A stretch of DNA of 64,000 nucleotides. It comes from Rhodothermales bacterium. GTDB taxonomy: Bacteria > Bacteroidota > Rhodothermia > Rhodothermales > VXPQ01. The stretch lies in contig OX638293.1 in the NCBI GenBank assembly GCA_951812335.1, positions 948,501 through 1,012,500 of the forward strand, in the 5' to 3' direction. Shown one piece after another: positions 5,006 through 55,673 of this stretch. A program made the position numbers and the translations under genes. The notes below the pieces were generated by a model. That model was not told where the DNA came from, did not search any database, and worked only from the letters and a program-made list of their open reading frames with translations. Within the stretch, counting starts at the first letter, position 1. Each line of letters begins with the position of its first letter.

Positions 5006-5257
5006 GGATACTCTGATTACATCCGCAAAGTTCAGAGGCTGAGCGGGGTGCGCTGGCGAGGAATGACGAACCAGTGTGGCAGGCTCCGCATAATGAGGAA
5101 TGACGCGGCCAGTGTGCCCCTCTCTGCCTTCCGAAGGGCGCTTCACGCCCACGGCGCCCCGAATCCGAAGCGTTCCGCTAATTTCAACGATGCCATTATG
5201 ATATCCTTGACGCACGAACGTGAAGCGCTGATCGAAGTGGACTTAATCAGAGTATCC
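5006..5257 (+). repeat. Interspersed MITE-like element, copy A (full length)
   Basis: About 252 bp, beginning GGATACTCTGATTACATCC and ending GGACTTAATCAGAGTATCC, so the ends are inverted repeats of each other. Inside is a second inverted pair, GGGGTGCGCTGGC at 5055-5067 against a GCCAGTGTGCCCC stretch near 5128-5140. Between these arms lie two direct copies of GAGGAATGACG or near variants. A short hairpin GGGCG-CTTCA-CGCCC follows. No convincing ORF. It fills the gap between the transaldolase gene and the PP2C gene, both minus strand. Flanks are TACA and TTTA, imperfect versions of the TTAA/TATA flanks of other copies. Confidence 0.85.
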
Positions 5258-11574: not shown

Positions 11575-11829
11575 GGATACTCTGCTTAAGTCCGCGAAGT
11601 TCAGAGGCTGAGAAGGGTGCGCCGGCAAGGAATGACGAAGCAGTGTGGCAGCCCCCACATAATGAGGAATGACGCGGCCAGCGTGCCCCTCTCTGTCTCT
11701 CGAAGGGTGCTTCACGCTCGCACTGCCTCGAATCCGAAGCGTTTCTCGCTAATTTCAACGATGGAATTATGATATCCTTATACGCCCGAACGTGAAGCGC
11801 TGATCGAAGTGGACTTAATCAGAGTATCC
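11575..11829 (+). repeat. Interspersed MITE-like element, copy B (full length, TATA flanks on both sides)
   Basis: A 255-bp copy starting GGATACTCTGCTTAAGTCC and ending GGACTTAATCAGAGTATCC. It is directly flanked by TATA at 11571-11574 and TATA at 11830-11833, the best candidate target-site duplication in the family. It occupies most of the divergent gap between gluconokinase and phosphofructokinase, so it may lie in or displace the promoter region of both. The inner arms GGGTGCGCCGGC and GCCAGCGTGCCC are retained. Confidence 0.87.
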
Positions 11830-16015: not shown

Positions 16016-16269
16016 GGATACTCTGATCAAGTCCACTTCGATCAACGCTTCAAGTTCGCGCGTAAAGGATGTCATGATTCCATCGTCGGAATCAGCGGGA
16101 AACACTGCGGATTCGGTTCAGTGCGGGCGTGAAGCGCCCTTCGGGAGGCTGAGAGAAGCACGCTGGCCGCGTCATTCCTCATTATGCGGGGCCTGCCACA
16201 CTGCTTCGTCATTCCTTGCCGGCACACCTCTCTCGGCCTCTGAACTTCGCGGACTTAACCAGAGTATCC
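16016..16269 (-). repeat. Interspersed MITE-like element, copy C (full length, inverted)
   Basis: A 254-bp copy in the opposite orientation to copies A and B. On the plus strand it runs from GGATACTCTGATCAAGTCC to GGACTTAACCAGAGTATCC, with TTAA on the left and TTTT on the right. Its inner stem carries paired changes relative to other copies (an A-T pair replacing a G-C pair in the GAGAGRGG arm). It separates the 13987-15996 gene from clpX, both plus strand. The remaining 170 bp before clpX contains no feature I can defend. Confidence 0.85.
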
Positions 16270-22862: not shown

Positions 22863-23381
22863 ATGGGGACACGCTGGAGCGCCATGCTTGCGATCCTGAC
22901 GCCGGTCGTGATCGTTGCGGCCTGCAATCCCTTTGCTCCTGCGCTCGAAGAAGGCAGCCCGTTTGGCGATCTGCTGGGCGATCCCACCACCATTGACGGC
23001 TTCTTTACCAATTTTCGGAATGCGTACGAGCTCCGGAACTTGTCTCTTTATGAATCGCTGCTGGATTCTTCTTTCATTTTCATCTACTACGACTTCGATG
23101 CCCAGGTCGAACGCGAGTGGGGCTTTGCCCAGGAACTCGAATCCACCCAGCGGCTCTTCGAAAATGCGACGCTCGTGAATCTGCGCTGGAATCAGATACT
23201 TTCTCAAACCCTGTTTGAAGAAGATTTGCGTGCTCGGATAGTGCGTCCCTTCAACCTGACCATTTCGCTCGAAGGCGGCGATGTTTTTCGGGGTGATGGG
23301 AATGTGAATTTTCTTATTATTCGGGAAGATACGTCCGCCGTCTGGAAGCTCCTCCGGTGGCGGGATGAAAGCGAATTATAG
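22863..23381 (+). CDS. Predicted small lipoprotein, unknown function (pair member 2)
   Basis: 172 residues with a lipobox at VIVAACNPFAP and a fold like that of its upstream neighbour: IDGFFTNFRNAYELRN, then LYESLLDSSFIFIYYDF and C-terminal strands ending WKLLRWRDESEL. It is probably a small envelope lipoprotein of the NTF2-like type; I do not recognise a named family. The TAG stop (23379-23381) uses the first G of the 37-bp hairpin element, so the insertion boundary supplies the last base of the stop codon. Confidence 0.75.
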   Translation: MGTRWSAMLAILTPVVIVAACNPFAPALEEGSPFGDLLGDPTTIDGFFTNFRNAYELRNLSLYESLLDSSFIFIYYDFDAQVEREWGFAQELESTQRLFENATLVNLRWNQILSQTLFEEDLRARIVRPFNLTISLEGGDVFRGDGNVNFLIIREDTSAVWKLLRWRDESEL

Positions 23382-23417
23382 GATACTCTGAGCTTTGCGG
23401 ACTTAATCAGCGTACCC
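23381..23417. repeat. 37-bp hairpin-only form of the interspersed element
   Basis: A 37-bp remnant with only the two ends of the family: GGATACTCTGA joined to GCTTTGCGGACTTAATCAG and then CGTACCC. TATA lies immediately on both sides (23377-23380 and 23418-23421), as for copy B. It starts inside the stop codon of the lipoprotein gene. A second hairpin-only form at 26218-26254 is the same length although its internal junction differs. Confidence 0.75.
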
Positions 23418-26217: not shown

Positions 26218-26254
26218 GGATACTCTGATTAAATCCACTTTGATCAGAGTATCC
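26218..26254. repeat. 37-bp hairpin-only form of the interspersed element
   Basis: Exactly 37 bp: GGATACTCTGATTAAATCC joined directly to ACTTTGATCAGAGTATCC, an almost perfect hairpin of both ends with the whole 215-bp interior missing. Left flank TTAA, right flank TTAC. It sits between dgoD and the tRNA-Leu gene with no other feature. Length is identical to that of the 23381-23417 copy although the junction is different. Confidence 0.8.
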
Positions 26255-26364: not shown

Positions 26365-26448
26365 GCCCGGGTGGCGGAATTGGTAGACGCGTCGGACTCA
26401 AAATCCGATGGCCTTCGGGTCTTGTGGGTTCGAGTCCCACCCCGGGTA
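26365..26448 (+). tRNA. tRNA-Leu (CAA)
   Basis: 84 bases: acceptor 5' arm GCCCGGG and 3' arm CCCGGGT with discriminator A and the G1-U72 wobble usual for bacterial tRNA-Leu. The anticodon stem TCGGA/TCCGA encloses the loop CTCAAAA, giving anticodon CAA, which reads UUG leucine codons. A long variable arm (TGGCCTTCGGGTCTTGT region) and T-loop GGTTCGAGTCC complete it. CCA is not encoded. Confidence 0.95.
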
Positions 26449-27841: not shown

Positions 27842-28094
27842 GAATACTCTGATTACGTCCGCGAAGCTCAGGGGCTGAGAGGGGTGCGCTGGCAAGGAAT
27901 GACGAAGCAATGCGGCAGGCCCCACATAATGAGGAATGACGCGGCCAGCGTGTCCCTCTCAACTTCCCGAAGGGCGCGTCACATCCGCGATGCCCCGAAT
28001 CCGCAGTGTTTTCCGCTGATTTCAAGGATGGGATCATGATGTCCTTTACGCGCGAAAGTAAAGTGCCGGGCGCAGTGGTCTTGATCAGAGTTCC
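27842..28094 (+). repeat. Interspersed MITE-like element, copy E (full length, degenerate ends)
   Basis: About 253 bp from GAATACTCTGATTACGTCC to GGTCTTGATCAGAGTTCC. Both ends have point changes (GAATACTC and GAGTTCC) and the flanks no longer match each other, so this looks like an old copy. The inner arms GAGAGGGGTGCGCTGGC and GCCAGCGTGTCCCTCTC are well kept with G.T pairs. It lies after the cupin gene and before the 57-bp tandem repeat. Confidence 0.8.
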
Positions 28095-28162
28095 ATGTAT
28101 ATAGCGTGCATCGGATATCTCCTTATTGGATTGGTTCGTCGGAAAATCCAATCTACGGGAGA

Positions 28163-28333
28163 CCCCGATATCCGTCCTCGCTTTGGGCGATACTGTCGGA
28201 TAATTCCTAAACCACTTCACCCCGATGTCCGTCCTCGTTTTAGGCGATACTGTCGGATAATTCCTAAACTACTTCACCCCGATGTCCGTCCTCGTTTTAG
28301 GCGATACTGTCGGATAATTCCTAAACTACTTCA
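28163..28333 (+). repeat. 57-bp tandem repeat, three units
   Basis: Three head-to-tail units at 28163-28219, 28220-28276 and 28277-28333. Units 2 and 3 are identical and unit 1 differs at about four positions. Each unit contains the inverted pair GTTTTAGG ... CCTAAAC separated by 18 bp, so each could form a hairpin. 57 is a multiple of three and one frame gives a 19-residue repeat (HPDVRPRFRRYCRIIPKLL), but there is no convincing start or gene context. There are no variable spacers, so it is not CRISPR. Unit 3 abuts the sulfatase remnant. Confidence 0.85.
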
Positions 28334-28509
28334 CGTGGAAGCTTCTCCGGAACAGTCCTTTTGCCCCTCTCGAGCTCTACAATCTTGAAGAAGACCCCCT
28401 CGAAACAACCGATCTCGCCGCAGAGGAACCGGATGTCTTCCGTCGGCTTGCCGCGGCGCTGCGGGGATATATCCAGGAAGCGGGCAAGGCGCCCTGGCAG
28501 CGCAGGTAA
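28318..28509 (+). pseudogene. C-terminal stump of a sulfatase (arylsulfatase family)
   Basis: An open frame with no start codon, beginning inside the third tandem repeat unit and reading WKLLRNSPFAPLELYNLEED then PLETTDLAAEEPDVFRRL and ending QRR-stop at 28509. ELYNLEEDPLETTDLA is the conserved C-terminal signature of the alkaline-phosphatase-like sulfatases used for sulfated polysaccharides. About 90 percent of the gene, including the catalytic Cys/Ser motif, is missing. It was evidently truncated at the tandem repeat boundary. Confidence 0.7.
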
Positions 28510-30300: not shown

Positions 30301-33198
30301 ATGATTGTTAACCGGTGGCCGTGCTTCGAAATGCGCCTGGCGTCTGTCGGTATCCTCCTTGCCGCCATGACCCATTGCTTGCGATATTTGCACCGTCGCC
30401 TGTGCATGGTAACCCCGCTCCTGGTTACCTGCATGATCGCCCTGCAACCCGCCGTGGCGTCTACGGACCCGGCGGGCAGTGATGCGGCGAACAGGTCTTT
30501 TTACCTGCCGCTTGCGACGGCTCCTTCGCCGGGACCAACCGGGAAGATTGCCGGTCGCGTCACGGACGCCGACACGGGCGAACCCCTCCCCGGGGTCAAT
30601 GTAGTCATCTCCGGAACGATCCAGGGCACGAGTAGCGACGTGGAGGGATACTACTTTATTCTCAACGTGGCGCCCGGTACGTATGCCGTGCAGGCCTCTT
30701 TCATCGGCTTTGCGACGGTGACGGTGGAGAACGTGAAGGTCGTTCAGGACAATACGACCACCGTTGACTTTACGCTACGCGAGGAAGTCATTCAGGGCGA
30801 AGAGGTGATCGTGGTTGCGGAGCGCCCCATCGTCGAGATGGATCGCACGACCACCACCGCCGTCGTCGACGGCGAGCAGCTCGCGGCATTGCCAATCACC
30901 AACATCGGCGACGCCATCAACCTGCAAGCCGGGGTGGTGGATGGCCATTTTCGGGGAGGGCGGATCGGCGAAGTGGCTTATCTCGTCAACGGGGTGCCCA
31001 TCAACAACGCATTCAGCCAGACGGCCTCCTTCGATGTAGAACAAAACATGGTGTCGAGTCTCGAGGTCATCAGCGGCGTATTCAACGCCGAGTACGGCCA
31101 GGCTCTGTCGGGGGTAGTCAACATTGTTACGAAAGACCTGCCCGACCGCTGGGCCGGCTCCTTCCTGAGCTATACCGGCGCCATCGTCAGCAACCGCAAG
31201 ATCGAGTTCCTTCACCGTACGACCGAACCCGGCTTTTTTCTCGCCCCCTCCGATTTTGTGTCGGAGCGCTATAGCTACACCGAGGCTGCCGCATTTCCCA
31301 ACATCTTCGATGCCCAGGCATCGCTTGGCGGACCCATACTCAGGAACAGGCTCGGCCTGCAAGCATCTGTGCGTTACCTGCAGGACCATTCCCATTTCAT
31401 CGGTCGCGATCTGTTTTCGCCATCCGACTCGTCGTCGAACCTGAACACCGGACTTCCACCCGGAACCTGGCTCGTCGAATCGACAGGGGACGGTAACTTT
31501 ACCCCGCGCAACAATACCGAACGCCTGTCCGTCAACGGTACCTTCGGCTTCCAGGTCACGCCGAAATTCAAGATAGATTACAACTTCTTTTTCCAGGGCG
31601 GCACATTCAATCCGTTCAGTCACTTCCGCAAGTACGTCCCTGACGGAATCAACCGGGTCGAGTTTCTGAATCAGACGCACATCGCGGGATTGCGCTGGAC
31701 GGTCGATAACCGGTCGTTTGCAAGCCTGTCGTACAGCTATCTGCATGACAAAACCGATGTGCGCCTGTATGAAGACCCGACCGATCTCCGCTACCAGTCT
31801 AGTCAACTGAGTTCCCTGCAAGGCCAGTTTGCCTTTGCGGTTGGCGGCAACGATCTGAACACGAGCGATCAACTCACGGCTACCCATAGTATTGTCGGCG
31901 ACTATACCCGGCAGGTGGACCGGGTACACCTGGTGAAGACGGGTTTCCTTCTCCGGCTACACACCCTGGACAATCGCGATTTCGGTATTGAGAAGTCGTT
32001 CCGGACAGGTAATCTGCCCCAGCCGTCGCCCGATATGTGGAGCGACAACAGCCTGAAGACTTCACCCAGGGAATTCTCGGCGTATATCCAGGATAAGATG
32101 GAATTCACGGGCCTGATCGCGAATGTGGGGCTCCGCTTCGATTATTTTGACCCGGACTATTTGATCCCCATGGATTGGCAGCAGGCGAATCTGACGGAAA
32201 TCCCCGATCCCGCCGATCCGTCCACGTCGATTTCGAACCGGCAAGAGACCCCTTCCGAATACCAGTTCAGCCCGCGCCTGGGCATCGCATTTCCTATCTC
32301 ATCGACGGGTGTGATGCGATTTTCGGCGGGGCTGTTCTTCCAGGTGCCGGCGTTCAGTATCCTGTATTCCAATCCCGAGTACGAGATCAACCCGATCTCA
32401 AGCTCGAACAGTTTCGGTAACCCGAACCTCAAACCCGAGCGCACACTCTCTTTCGAAGTGGGACTCCAGCAGGGGTTGACGGACGACATCGGTCTGGAAC
32501 TGACGATCTTCTCGAAGGACGTACGCAACCTGACCGGACAGGATATCCTGCGCAATCCCAACGGCGATTTCGCTATTCGCTGGATCAACCGCGACTTTGG
32601 TACGATTCGCGGCATGACCTTCTCGCTTTTCCAGCGTCCCGGTGGGCGGCTGAACTGGACGCTGGACTATACGTTGCAATTCGCCGAGGGAACATCGTCG
32701 AGTCCCGGAGAGGCGTTCGGACGCCAGCAATCGGGCCTGGAAGCCATCCTTTCACTGGTTCGTCTCGACTGGGATCGCCGCCATGTACTCAACAACACGA
32801 TCACGGTCAACCCGGTCAAGGGTCTGAACCTGACGTTCATCAACCGCCTGCAGAGCGGCACCCCGTACACCACGATCCGTGATCTGATCGTGTCGAACCT
32901 GAAAAACAACGCGGCGCGGCCCCTTACCTACGGCACGGATGTACGAGCATACTATAAGCCGCCTTTTCTACGTCCGAATATCCAGCTCTTTTTACAAATA
33001 CAGAATTTGTTCGACGTGGAGCAGGAAGTCAACGTGTATTCCGACACGGGCCGTGCCGACGAGTCGGTGGAACTGGAGCGGCTCCGGCGTACGGGCGGCG
33101 AAGTGGGCGGCTTGAACACCATCGACGAGTGGTTCTACCGGCAGGAATTCTTCGGCGCGCCGCGCAGGATCAGCCTTGGACTCAACTATCGATTTTAA
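30301..33198 (+). CDS. TonB-dependent receptor with carboxypeptidase-like regulatory domain
   Basis: Up to 965 residues. After an N-terminal signal/anchor region (MVTPLLVTCMIALQPAVAS), residues about 80-165 form a CarboxypepD_reg-like domain (GRVTDADTGEPLPGVNVVIS, FIGFATVTVENV). A plug domain follows (QLAALPITNIGDAINLQAGV, LSGVVNIVTKDLP), then a beta-barrel ending QEFFGAPRRISLGLNYRF. It would import a large substrate across the outer membrane in a TonB/ExbBD-dependent way. The ATG at 30301 may be too early; 30367 or 30406 precede the signal peptide. The stop TAA (33196-33198) is part of the TTAA flank of copy F. It heads the locus with the giant secreted protein, PorV-like barrel and PPIase. 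Confidence 0.93.
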   Translation: MIVNRWPCFEMRLASVGILLAAMTHCLRYLHRRLCMVTPLLVTCMIALQPAVASTDPAGSDAANRSFYLPLATAPSPGPTGKIAGRVTDADTGEPLPGVNVVISGTIQGTSSDVEGYYFILNVAPGTYAVQASFIGFATVTVENVKVVQDNTTTVDFTLREEVIQGEEVIVVAERPIVEMDRTTTTAVVDGEQLAALPITNIGDAINLQAGVVDGHFRGGRIGEVAYLVNGVPINNAFSQTASFDVEQNMVSSLEVISGVFNAEYGQALSGVVNIVTKDLPDRWAGSFLSYTGAIVSNRKIEFLHRTTEPGFFLAPSDFVSERYSYTEAAAFPNIFDAQASLGGPILRNRLGLQASVRYLQDHSHFIGRDLFSPSDSSSNLNTGLPPGTWLVESTGDGNFTPRNNTERLSVNGTFGFQVTPKFKIDYNFFFQGGTFNPFSHFRKYVPDGINRVEFLNQTHIAGLRWTVDNRSFASLSYSYLHDKTDVRLYEDPTDLRYQSSQLSSLQGQFAFAVGGNDLNTSDQLTATHSIVGDYTRQVDRVHLVKTGFLLRLHTLDNRDFGIEKSFRTGNLPQPSPDMWSDNSLKTSPREFSAYIQDKMEFTGLIANVGLRFDYFDPDYLIPMDWQQANLTEIPDPADPSTSISNRQETPSEYQFSPRLGIAFPISSTGVMRFSAGLFFQVPAFSILYSNPEYEINPISSSNSFGNPNLKPERTLSFEVGLQQGLTDDIGLELTIFSKDVRNLTGQDILRNPNGDFAIRWINRDFGTIRGMTFSLFQRPGGRLNWTLDYTLQFAEGTSSSPGEAFGRQQSGLEAILSLVRLDWDRRHVLNNTITVNPVKGLNLTFINRLQSGTPYTTIRDLIVSNLKNNAARPLTYGTDVRAYYKPPFLRPNIQLFLQIQNLFDVEQEVNVYSDTGRADESVELERLRRTGGEVGGLNTIDEWFYRQEFFGAPRRISLGLNYRF

Positions 33199-33453
33199 GG
33201 ATGCTCCGATCAAGTCCGCTGCGATCAGCACTTCACTTTCACGCGTACAGAACGACATGATTACATCGTTGAAACCAGCGAAAAACACGGCGGCTTCGGG
33301 ACATCGCGGTCGTGAAGCGCCCTTCGGGAGGCCGACAGACGCACGGTGGCTGTGTCATTCCTCATTACGTGGGGCCTACCACGTTGCTTCGTCATTCCTT
33401 GCCAGCGCGCCCCTGTCAGCCTCTGAATCTTTGCGGACTTAATCAGAGCATCC
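33199..33453 (-). repeat. Interspersed MITE-like element, copy F (full length, inverted, compensatory ends)
   Basis: 255 bp, plus-strand ends GGATGCTCCGATCAAGTCC and GGACTTAATCAGAGCATCC. Both ends carry the same paired change relative to the family (GATAC to GATGC on the left, GTATC to GCATC on the right), so pairing is kept. The inner stem also shows a matched change (GAGAG to GACAG on both arms). Left flank TTAA is shared with the stop codon of the TonB receptor; right flank is TTTA. It separates two plus-strand genes of the same locus. Confidence 0.85.
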
Positions 33454-43864: not shown

Positions 43865-44023
43865 AAGAGTCTGAAAATGGGTTGTTCGAAACCTTTTTGA
43901 CGGGCCAAATGGCGAGATATGACGCCCGCTCCTCGACTACAGGACCATTTGAACCACTATCCTTTTTGCGCGATACGTAAACGGAAGGAGATGGTTGCAC
44001 GGTGCGCAGATCCGGCCGTGCGC

Positions 44024-44203
44024 CGGGCTCCACACAATGAGGAATGACGCGGCCAGCGCGCTTCTCGCAGCCTCCCGAAGGGCGCTTCACGCCCGCACTG
44101 TCCCGAATCCGCAGCGTTTCCCGCTAATTCCGACGATGCAATTATGATATTTTTTACGCACGAACGTGAAGCGCTGAGCGAAGTGGACTTGATCAGAGTA
44201 TCC
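44024..44203 (+). repeat. Interspersed MITE-like element, copy G (left end missing)
   Basis: About 180 bp matching the right three-quarters of the family (CCACACAATGAGGAATGACG onward, through the GGGCG-CTTCA-CGCCC hairpin) and ending GGACTTGATCAGAGTATCC with TTAA on the right. Sequence left of about 44024 is only weakly similar. It occupies the 375-bp gap between GH5 and the DUF5916 gene, otherwise featureless. Confidence 0.75.
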
Positions 44204-50050: not shown

Positions 50051-50203
50051 GGCCAGCGTGCCCCTCTCAGCCTTCCGAAGGGCGCTTCACGCCCGCGATG
50101 CCCCGAATCCGCAGTGTTTTCTGCTGATTTCGACGATGGAATCATGACGTCCTATCCGCGCGAACGTGAAGTGCTGAGCGAAGAGGTTTTGATCAGAGTA
50201 TCC
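50051..50203 (+). repeat. Interspersed MITE-like element, copy H (left end missing)
   Basis: 153 bp matching the right part of the family from GGCCAGCGTGCCCCTCTC to TTTTGATCAGAGTATCC, with TATA on its right. The left 100 bp are gone. It fills part of the divergent gap between the xylanase and VOC genes; no other feature is seen there. Confidence 0.75.
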
Positions 50204-53770: not shown

Positions 53771-54298
53771 ATGGCTTTGAACCTCATGGAACGCAGACCC
53801 CACAGCGACGAGTACGCCGATTTTTACCGGCCGTACATAGCGGAAGCCCCGGACGGTCCGATCGTGGCTACGCTCGATGCACAGCGGAATGATCTTGCCC
53901 GTGTGACGGCGGACGCATCTCCCGACCGCGAGCGGTATCGCTATGCGCCGGGCAAGTGGTCGGTGCGCGAGATGGTGGGGCATCTGATCGACAGCGAGCG
54001 GATGTTCGCGATGCGGGCTCTTGCCTTTGCCCGGGGCGACAGGGCGCACTATCCGGGATTCGACGAGAACGAATACGTTGCTGCGTCGGACGCGGACGAG
54101 AGATACTTGGCGGAACTGGTCGAGGAGTGGGATGCGACGCGGCATGCCACCGTGTTACTGTTCAAGGGGCTGCCGGATGTCGCATGGGATCGCCGCGGGC
54201 ACGCCAGCGGTTGTGAGTTCTCCGTTCGGAGCATGGCCTGGATCACCGCAGGGCATACGCAGCATCACCTTGGGGTGCTGCGGGAGCGGTATCTTTGA
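53771..54298 (+). CDS. DinB-superfamily protein
   Basis: 175 residues, a four-helix DinB bundle. Metal-site histidines are in REMVGHLIDSERMF and the C-terminal ITAGHTQHHLGVLRERYL. DinB-like proteins act as metal-dependent hydrolases or thiol transferases and are often stress-induced; the role here is unknown. Its last 126 bp are repeated almost exactly at 55548-55673, flanking the rhuM gene. Confidence 0.88.
   Translation: MALNLMERRPHSDEYADFYRPYIAEAPDGPIVATLDAQRNDLARVTADASPDRERYRYAPGKWSVREMVGHLIDSERMFAMRALAFARGDRAHYPGFDENEYVAASDADERYLAELVEEWDATRHATVLLFKGLPDVAWDRRGHASGCEFSVRSMAWITAGHTQHHLGVLRERYL
54173..54298 (+). repeat. 126-bp direct repeat, left copy (3' end of the intact dinB gene)
   Basis: 126 bp shared with 55548-55673 with about three mismatches. 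The repeats flank a 1.25-kb segment containing rhuM, as expected if the region arose by duplication of the dinB 3' part together with capture of rhuM. Confidence 0.85.
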
Positions 54299-55470: not shown

Positions 55471-55673
55471 TGGCGATGAACCCCATGGAAGCCATGCTGA
55501 AGGCCGACGAGTGTGCTGGTTTCTATCGGTCCTGCATAGCCGCGGTCCCGGATGCCGCATGGGATCGTCGCGGGCACGCCAGCGGTTGCGAGTTCTCCGT
55601 TCGGAGCATGGCCTGGATCACCGCAGGGCATACGCAGCATCACCTTGGGGTGCTGCGGGAGCGGTATCTTTGA
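55470..55673 (+). pseudogene. Internally deleted dinB copy
   Basis: A 67-codon frame: about 27 residues resembling a diverged DinB N-terminus (MAMNPMEAMLKADECAGFYR) joined to the last 40 residues of the DinB protein at 53771-54298 (AWDRRGHASGCEFSVRSMAW onward). The middle of the domain, with the first metal ligand, is missing, so it cannot fold as DinB. Its start overlaps the rhuM stop. Expression as a small peptide cannot be excluded. Confidence 0.75.
55548..55673 (+). repeat. 126-bp direct repeat, right copy
   Basis: The right partner of 54173-54298, ending at the same TTTGA stop context. Sequences before and after the two copies are unrelated. Confidence 0.85.

Follow-up and report, generated by a model that had tools for sequence, protein, structure and literature searches.

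A dispersed, gene-less IS5-type element of an uncultured Rhodothermales genus and the covariation of its paired stems

Bacterial MITEs such as RUP of pneumococcus, Correia/NEMIS and Nezha are short, non-coding, intergenic repeats present in many copies, bounded by TIRs that are shared with an IS (PMC10969869, PMC3049150). They duplicate their target and have a strong predicted fold in which the TIRs pair. REPINs, which depend on RAYT transposases, are also mobile, non-autonomous hairpins, and the compensatory changes reported to be common in them provide an existing precedent for such changes in mobile hairpins (PMC3116915). Homogenisation of arms together with inversion of the spacer between them is a described signature of template switching (PMC8604942), a process that, according to one proposal, both generates RNA hairpins and maintains them by keeping their stems paired (PMC8794818). 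The cases described in those two studies are in yeast coding genes and in RNA genes.

The repeat family studied here, one copy of which (copy F) lies near the middle of the 64,000 nt of DNA analysed (the window), is a non-autonomous IS5-type transposon (MITE), short and gene-less. It has all of the properties listed above for RUP, Correia/NEMIS and Nezha, but differs from them in its two-armed interior, in an arm-inverted subfamily and in derivatives that are 37-bp palindromes. The unit is ~254 bp (modal length 253-256 bp), includes no transposase gene and falls within the MITE size range of 50-500 bp. Both ends carry 19-bp TIRs (GGATACTCTGATYAAGTCC), and full copies open with GGATAC or GGATGC and close with the reverse complement. 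The element fits the IS5 family (NCBIfam NF033581 transpos_IS5_4) by its TIR sequence and type and by a short, 4-bp target duplication; unlike the insertion sequences of that family it is without a transposase, and only its ends are common with the IS relic described below. In IS5-type TIRs and 4-bp duplication it also differs from REPINs, and the length of its TIRs, together with the target duplication, suggests a DDE transposase and not a RAYT.

The genome that holds the window (G000, from an uncultured member of the Rhodothermales) is a single contig of 2,686,407 bp, in which the end motif GGATACTCTGATCAAGTCC (19 bp, at most 3 mismatches) was found at 191 forward and 200 reverse sites; the reversed control gave 0 and 0. 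The analysis covered stretches picked around copies, ~0.9 Mb of G000 and 0.79 Mb from the genome of a sister species (G004), and a profile search of the G000 portion yielded 165 matches, 82 of them near full length. Each of the five congeneric genomes examined besides G000 has the family, the 34 genomes searched in the remainder of the order all lack it, and the named records bearing the end motif are uncultured Rhodothermales MAGs. It is a separate MITE family of a known kind, so far found in one uncultured Rhodothermales genus only. Plasmid and phage collections searched with the element gave no match, and no Rfam family matched over it (best sub-threshold match, E 0.61). The TIR pattern also had matches in a few unrelated phyla (L190, L208, L226, L228, L240); these were dismissed since there were no convincing paired TIRs or transposases among the matches listed and since ~4 chance matches are expected from the pattern length.

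Copies, remnants and parts of copy F in the 64-kb window (positions are those of the window)
Feature	Position	Strand	Remarks
Full-length copy	5006..5257	-	Empty site in G004
Full-length copy	11575..11829	-	
Full-length copy (copy C)	16016..16269	+	Empty site in G004
37-bp remnant, left TIR joined to right end	23381..23417	+	Junction read from sequence
37-bp palindromic remnant GGATACTCTGATTAAATCCACTTTGATCAGAGTATCC	26218..26254	.	
Near-full-length copy	27843..28091	-	Outermost bases decayed
Copy F, full-length element (255 bp)	33199..33453	+	Target TTTA(A) duplicated on both sides; empty orthologous site CGATTTTAGCGACGG in G004
Copy F, left TIR GGATGCTCCGATCAAGTCC	33199..33217	+	
Copy F, arm 1, approximate (model columns 30-122)	33228..33320	+	Consensus fold; basal stem mismatched in copy F
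Copy F, arm 2, approximate (model columns 130-225)	33329..33424	+	Basal stem GACAG/CTGTC; conserved unpaired TTGCTTCGTCATTCCTT
Copy F, right TIR, minus strand reads GGATGCTCTGATTAAGTCCGC	33433..33453	-	
Truncated copy (model 1-184)	44020..44203	-	
Truncated copy (model 1-153)	50051..50203	-	

Copy F adjoins, directly 3', the stop codon of a TonB-receptor-like ORF (30301-33198); the insertion landed at this stop codon, and a stop is still in place there. Two other repeats were seen in the window, namely three tandem units with a 57-bp period (ACCCCGATGTCCGTCCTCGTTTTAGGCGATACTGTCGG...; at least 93% alike) at 28162-28334, and a 126-bp direct repeat at 54173-54298 and 55548-55673 (98% identical, 1375 bp apart).

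Exact 4-bp matches between the two flanks were found for 18 of 70 full copies, compared with a mean of 5.2 and a maximum of 12 in 2000 shuffles, and the targets most often duplicated are TTAA, TAAA and CATG. Many orthologous sites in congeners are empty and hold a single copy of the target. At the copy F locus, G000 has CGATTTTAA-element-TTTAACGACGGG and G004 has CGATTTTAGCGACGGG, an empty site. One and the same composite, a copy inserted within another at column 53, is seen at G000 563530-564045, 565438-565952 and 1303986-1304501; two of these three nested composites are ~1.4 kb apart and in opposite orientation. Derivatives range from 37 bp upwards, and many sites hold forms without one or both arms. 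Some of the 37-bp forms have a junction that matches deletion between CTCTGA at columns 7-12 and CTCTGA near column 224, and the sequence of the remnant at 23381-23417 is as expected if it had formed from a full copy by such a deletion, with two CTCTGA direct repeats as end points. The short palindromic derivatives would probably arise by slippage across the folded element. At orthologous site 2324250 a 252-bp element in G000 corresponds to a 37-bp form in G004. A tRNA is predicted at 26365-26448, ~110 bp downstream of the palindromic remnant at 26218-26254.

A DDE_Tnp_1 search of the genus recovered three decayed transposase genes in G004, and the relic proteins match the IS5-family models NF033581, PF01609 and PF05598. 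All three genes have CGGATTGATCAGAGTATCC downstream, and one of them (L248), which is a 666-bp broken IS with the same TIR on both sides, also has GGATACTCTGATTTAATCC upstream. The MITE and the IS relic are alike in their ends only, with matches of TIR length. G000 also has a transposase relic (fragment) at 2685034, with a decayed TIR after it. In another genus (G029), a transposase that is 72% identical and whose frame is intact has the similar end GGAATGTCTGATCAATG. On the basis of these sequences, the IS5-family transposase of the relics is the probable mobiliser. This enzyme, now decayed or lost, would have acted on the element in trans, recognising its TIRs and carrying it to intergenic sites. 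No intact transposase with the element's TIRs was found in the six genomes of the genus, which counts against this reading. The DDE_Tnp_1 gene at G000 636280 was ruled out as mobiliser, its TIRs being GGGCGTGTTAACACTA, and its own insertion into a copy of the repeat is a further ground against that role. That gene (L111, 636280-636654) is the only passing DDE_Tnp_1 match in the genome, is flanked by the GGGCGTGTTAACACTA repeats and lies within the right end of the repeat copy.

In the consensus fold, an outer stem made up of the TIRs and adjoining bases encloses two arms. The basal pairs join columns 30-45 with 107-122 in arm 1, and columns 130-152 with 203-225 in arm 2. Taken as DNA, copy F has a better fold than 199 of its 200 shuffles (z = -2.75), and its mismatched arm 1 is missing from its predicted minimum-energy structure. 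The arm 1 stem has 9.8 changes per column compared with about 10 in the arm 1 loops, and the arm 2 stem has 6.3. Unpaired arm-2 columns 186-202 (TTGCTTCGTCATTCCTT; approximately 33385-33401 of the window) are among the slowest, with 3.0 changes per column. GTCATTCCT is present twice in arm 2. In the inverted subfamily (G000 53657, 230772, 404821 and 646345), columns 29-122 are flipped in place exactly between the arm-1 arms, and this may have been a single event.

Across the family, pairing is restored more often than expected by chance in the outer stem, the arm 1 base and the arm 2 base. In an independent count that agrees with the tree-based one below, on 59 pairs in 54-55 distinct copies from G000, 61 cells were changed on both sides, compared with 23 in shuffles (0 of 500 reached 61) and with 10-42 when the partners were slid. 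A FastTree tree was built from 142 distinct full-length copies, and a double change was scored for each branch on which both bases of one standard pair are replaced by those of another. The whole structure has 41 such branches, against a mean of 11.2 and a maximum of 20 in 200 simulations that preserved tree, branch and substitution type; the copy tree is an imperfect model here, as copies recombine. Double changes numbered 12 in the outer stem, 7 in the arm 1 base and 15 in the arm 2 base, whereas sliding the partners by 1-6 columns left 0-1, 0-3 and 0-3, respectively. A strict R-scape-like all-pairs test, which is without power, found no pair below E = 1 (best E about 5). The original prediction had proposed a statistical test of covariation; the all-pairs version singled out no pair, whereas the branch-wise version places all three stems above phylogenetic expectation, as had been anticipated.

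The prediction itself was built on three matched changes in copies of the window, taken to be independent. Copy F does have GATGC and GCATC at its ends (GGATGC...GCATCC) in place of GATAC/GTATC, but this is not peculiar to it; the same ends occur in 14 of the 142 aligned full-length copies, and a single clade of about 10 copies accounts for most of these. At the pair formed by columns 5 and 250, the tree shows several double changes from A-T to G-C and a single one in the reverse direction, and one double change founds the copy F clade. G000:1075593 and 2436464 have outer shells like that of copy F on other interiors and look like mosaics, for which exchange of interiors can explain both ends at once, while G001_L137_9536 and G005_L170_8800 have different shells and their 5-250 changes look independent. 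Unmatched 5-250 intermediates persist in 646345 and, in both species, in 2140767. The GACAG reported for the inner arms of copy F is present together with CTGTC, but is matched in only one copy besides F: at column pair 138-217, 2 copies have C-G, and in 8 further copies a C stands opposite T, as a mismatch. Copy C, taken from the order of the copies (third by position) as that at 16016-16269, has two adjacent G to A changes in its left inner arm (GAGAAG). One partner is now T and the other still C, so that the reported G-C to A-T replacement in arm 2 restores one pair while the adjacent second pair is broken (A-C). The three cited changes do not represent three independent events.

That the fold itself is maintained, the conclusion first drawn, does not follow from family-wide covariation of the stems, given that selection on the TIRs and template switching can act on them. 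The movement and copying of the element explain the covariation better than cellular upkeep of an RNA shape would, and host function is not needed to explain the element. Matching of the outer stem is expected because this stem is the TIR pair, and both ends must suit the transposase. The need for recognition of both TIRs would keep it matched, as would the swapping of the two ends together between copies. Inner arms would be re-matched mainly via template switching at replication forks, with one arm copied from the other, and the same process would have produced the in-place inversion between the arm-1 arms. Template switching is a mutational process and yields matched changes without selection. 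Homogenisation by this route is the favoured reading for the arms because the arm-1 inversion is exact and because unmatched changes vastly outnumber matched ones, with several hundred single-sided changes away from Watson-Crick pairing in the arms and about 30 matched double changes on the tree. The similar rates of change in the stem columns and loops of arm 1 were also counted in its favour. Counted against it were the slower change of the arm 2 stem relative to arm 1, as selection on arm 2 predicts; the conserved unpaired columns 186-202, which template switching leaves unexplained; a slight minus-strand G-U lean among single changes; and the low divergence of intact copies shared with G004 (below), explicable by constraint. 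The matched arm changes and exact spacer inversion resemble those of the described template-switch cases (PMC8604942, PMC8794818), although here the process is placed in a dispersed repeat of a bacterium, and the spacer is far longer. As a whole, an IS5-type MITE with a TIR-matched outer stem and with arms re-matched mainly by template switching is the best explanation and probably the correct one.

Selection could instead act on an RNA fold, if the element is co-transcribed with the genes next to it and a function in, for instance, RNA stability, processing or regulation preserves its stems. All three stems covary, the predicted fold is strong (z = -2.75 for copy F as DNA), the arm-2 loop is conserved, minus-strand G-U changes are in slight excess, and RNA roles have been reported for Correia, ERIC and BOX repeats. 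However, the majority of stem substitutions break pairs, the plus strand shows no G-U preference, no Rfam family was matched, and many copies have empty sites in the sister species. The genomic setting also argues against this reading, which we consider rather unlikely. Orientation relative to tandem neighbour genes is unbiased (16 same, 12 opposite), there is no bias toward convergent genes, and the gene-pair configurations around copies resemble the genomic background, which leaves a terminator or 3'-UTR role unsupported. These comparisons rest on a simple home-made gene call, by which none of 38 copies lay inside a gene.

Selection might also bear on a DNA hairpin or cruciform used in transposition, such that well-folding copies move better and active lineages keep their stems. 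Covariation does arise between copies, no matched pair is seen among the differences of those orthologous shared copies that were examined (few data), and compensatory changes are reported in REPINs, another mobile hairpin (PMC3116915). Against this, the IS relic has the TIRs without the arms, and derivatives with one arm or none occur at many sites, though these may have been longer when they inserted, as at 2324250. In IS elements, moreover, DDE transposases act on duplex TIRs, and such a role for the hairpin is considered unlikely. An artefact of shared ancestry and mosaicism, in which recombination moves linked changes and one exchange is counted as several matched ones, fits the clade-wide outer change of copy F and the copy at G000:1075593, whose interior is 3 changes from 90984 and whose outer shell is like that of the copy F clade. 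Mosaic tracts would raise the slid-partner counts too, whereas far fewer double changes were found with slid partners; this control largely refutes the artefact, which is the least probable of the alternatives.

G000 and G004 have six intact copies in common at the same sites (404821, 742490, 762673, 1075593, 2140767 and 2422898 in G000 are listed with G004 orthologues). These have 10 differences in 1520 bp (0.66%), whereas their 200-bp flanks have 181 differences in about 2380 bp (7.6%), a comparison that excludes 2 shared copies in a nearly identical block. The intact copies are therefore ~10-11-fold less diverged than the adjoining DNA, and divergence resumes 2-60 bp beyond their ends. Old fragments common to the two genomes diverge like flanks. 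Copy F, which is absent from G004, differs by ~9% from its closest relative anywhere in the genome. At site 742490, G003 is empty, and G004 has a 98% paralogue at another position. Young insertions may have crossed between lineages, their flanks later being overwritten through recombination with element-free alleles, or intact copies may be under constraint. The former fits better, because several of the shared-copy subfamilies are young. A 7-kb block (G000 2399119-2406014, G004 1093044-1099965) is 98.8% identical, compared with about 90% in other blocks compared, and this identity suggests a recent exchange between the two species. A broader proposition, in which stems of a MITE paired by mutation and not by selection pass covariation tests without a functional fold, and in which shared intact copies are ~10 times less diverged than adjoining DNA either because the insertions are spared the recombination that overwrites their flanks or because intact copies have gained a function, is held only tentatively and is on balance doubtful.

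Covariation is widely taken as evidence of a functional RNA fold. This family combines more than 100 alignable copies and an arm-inverted subfamily with empty sites at orthologous positions and a sister genome that is complete; it is a test bed for the amount of matched change that arises without structural selection, and its copies are markers for recombination between uncultured sister species.
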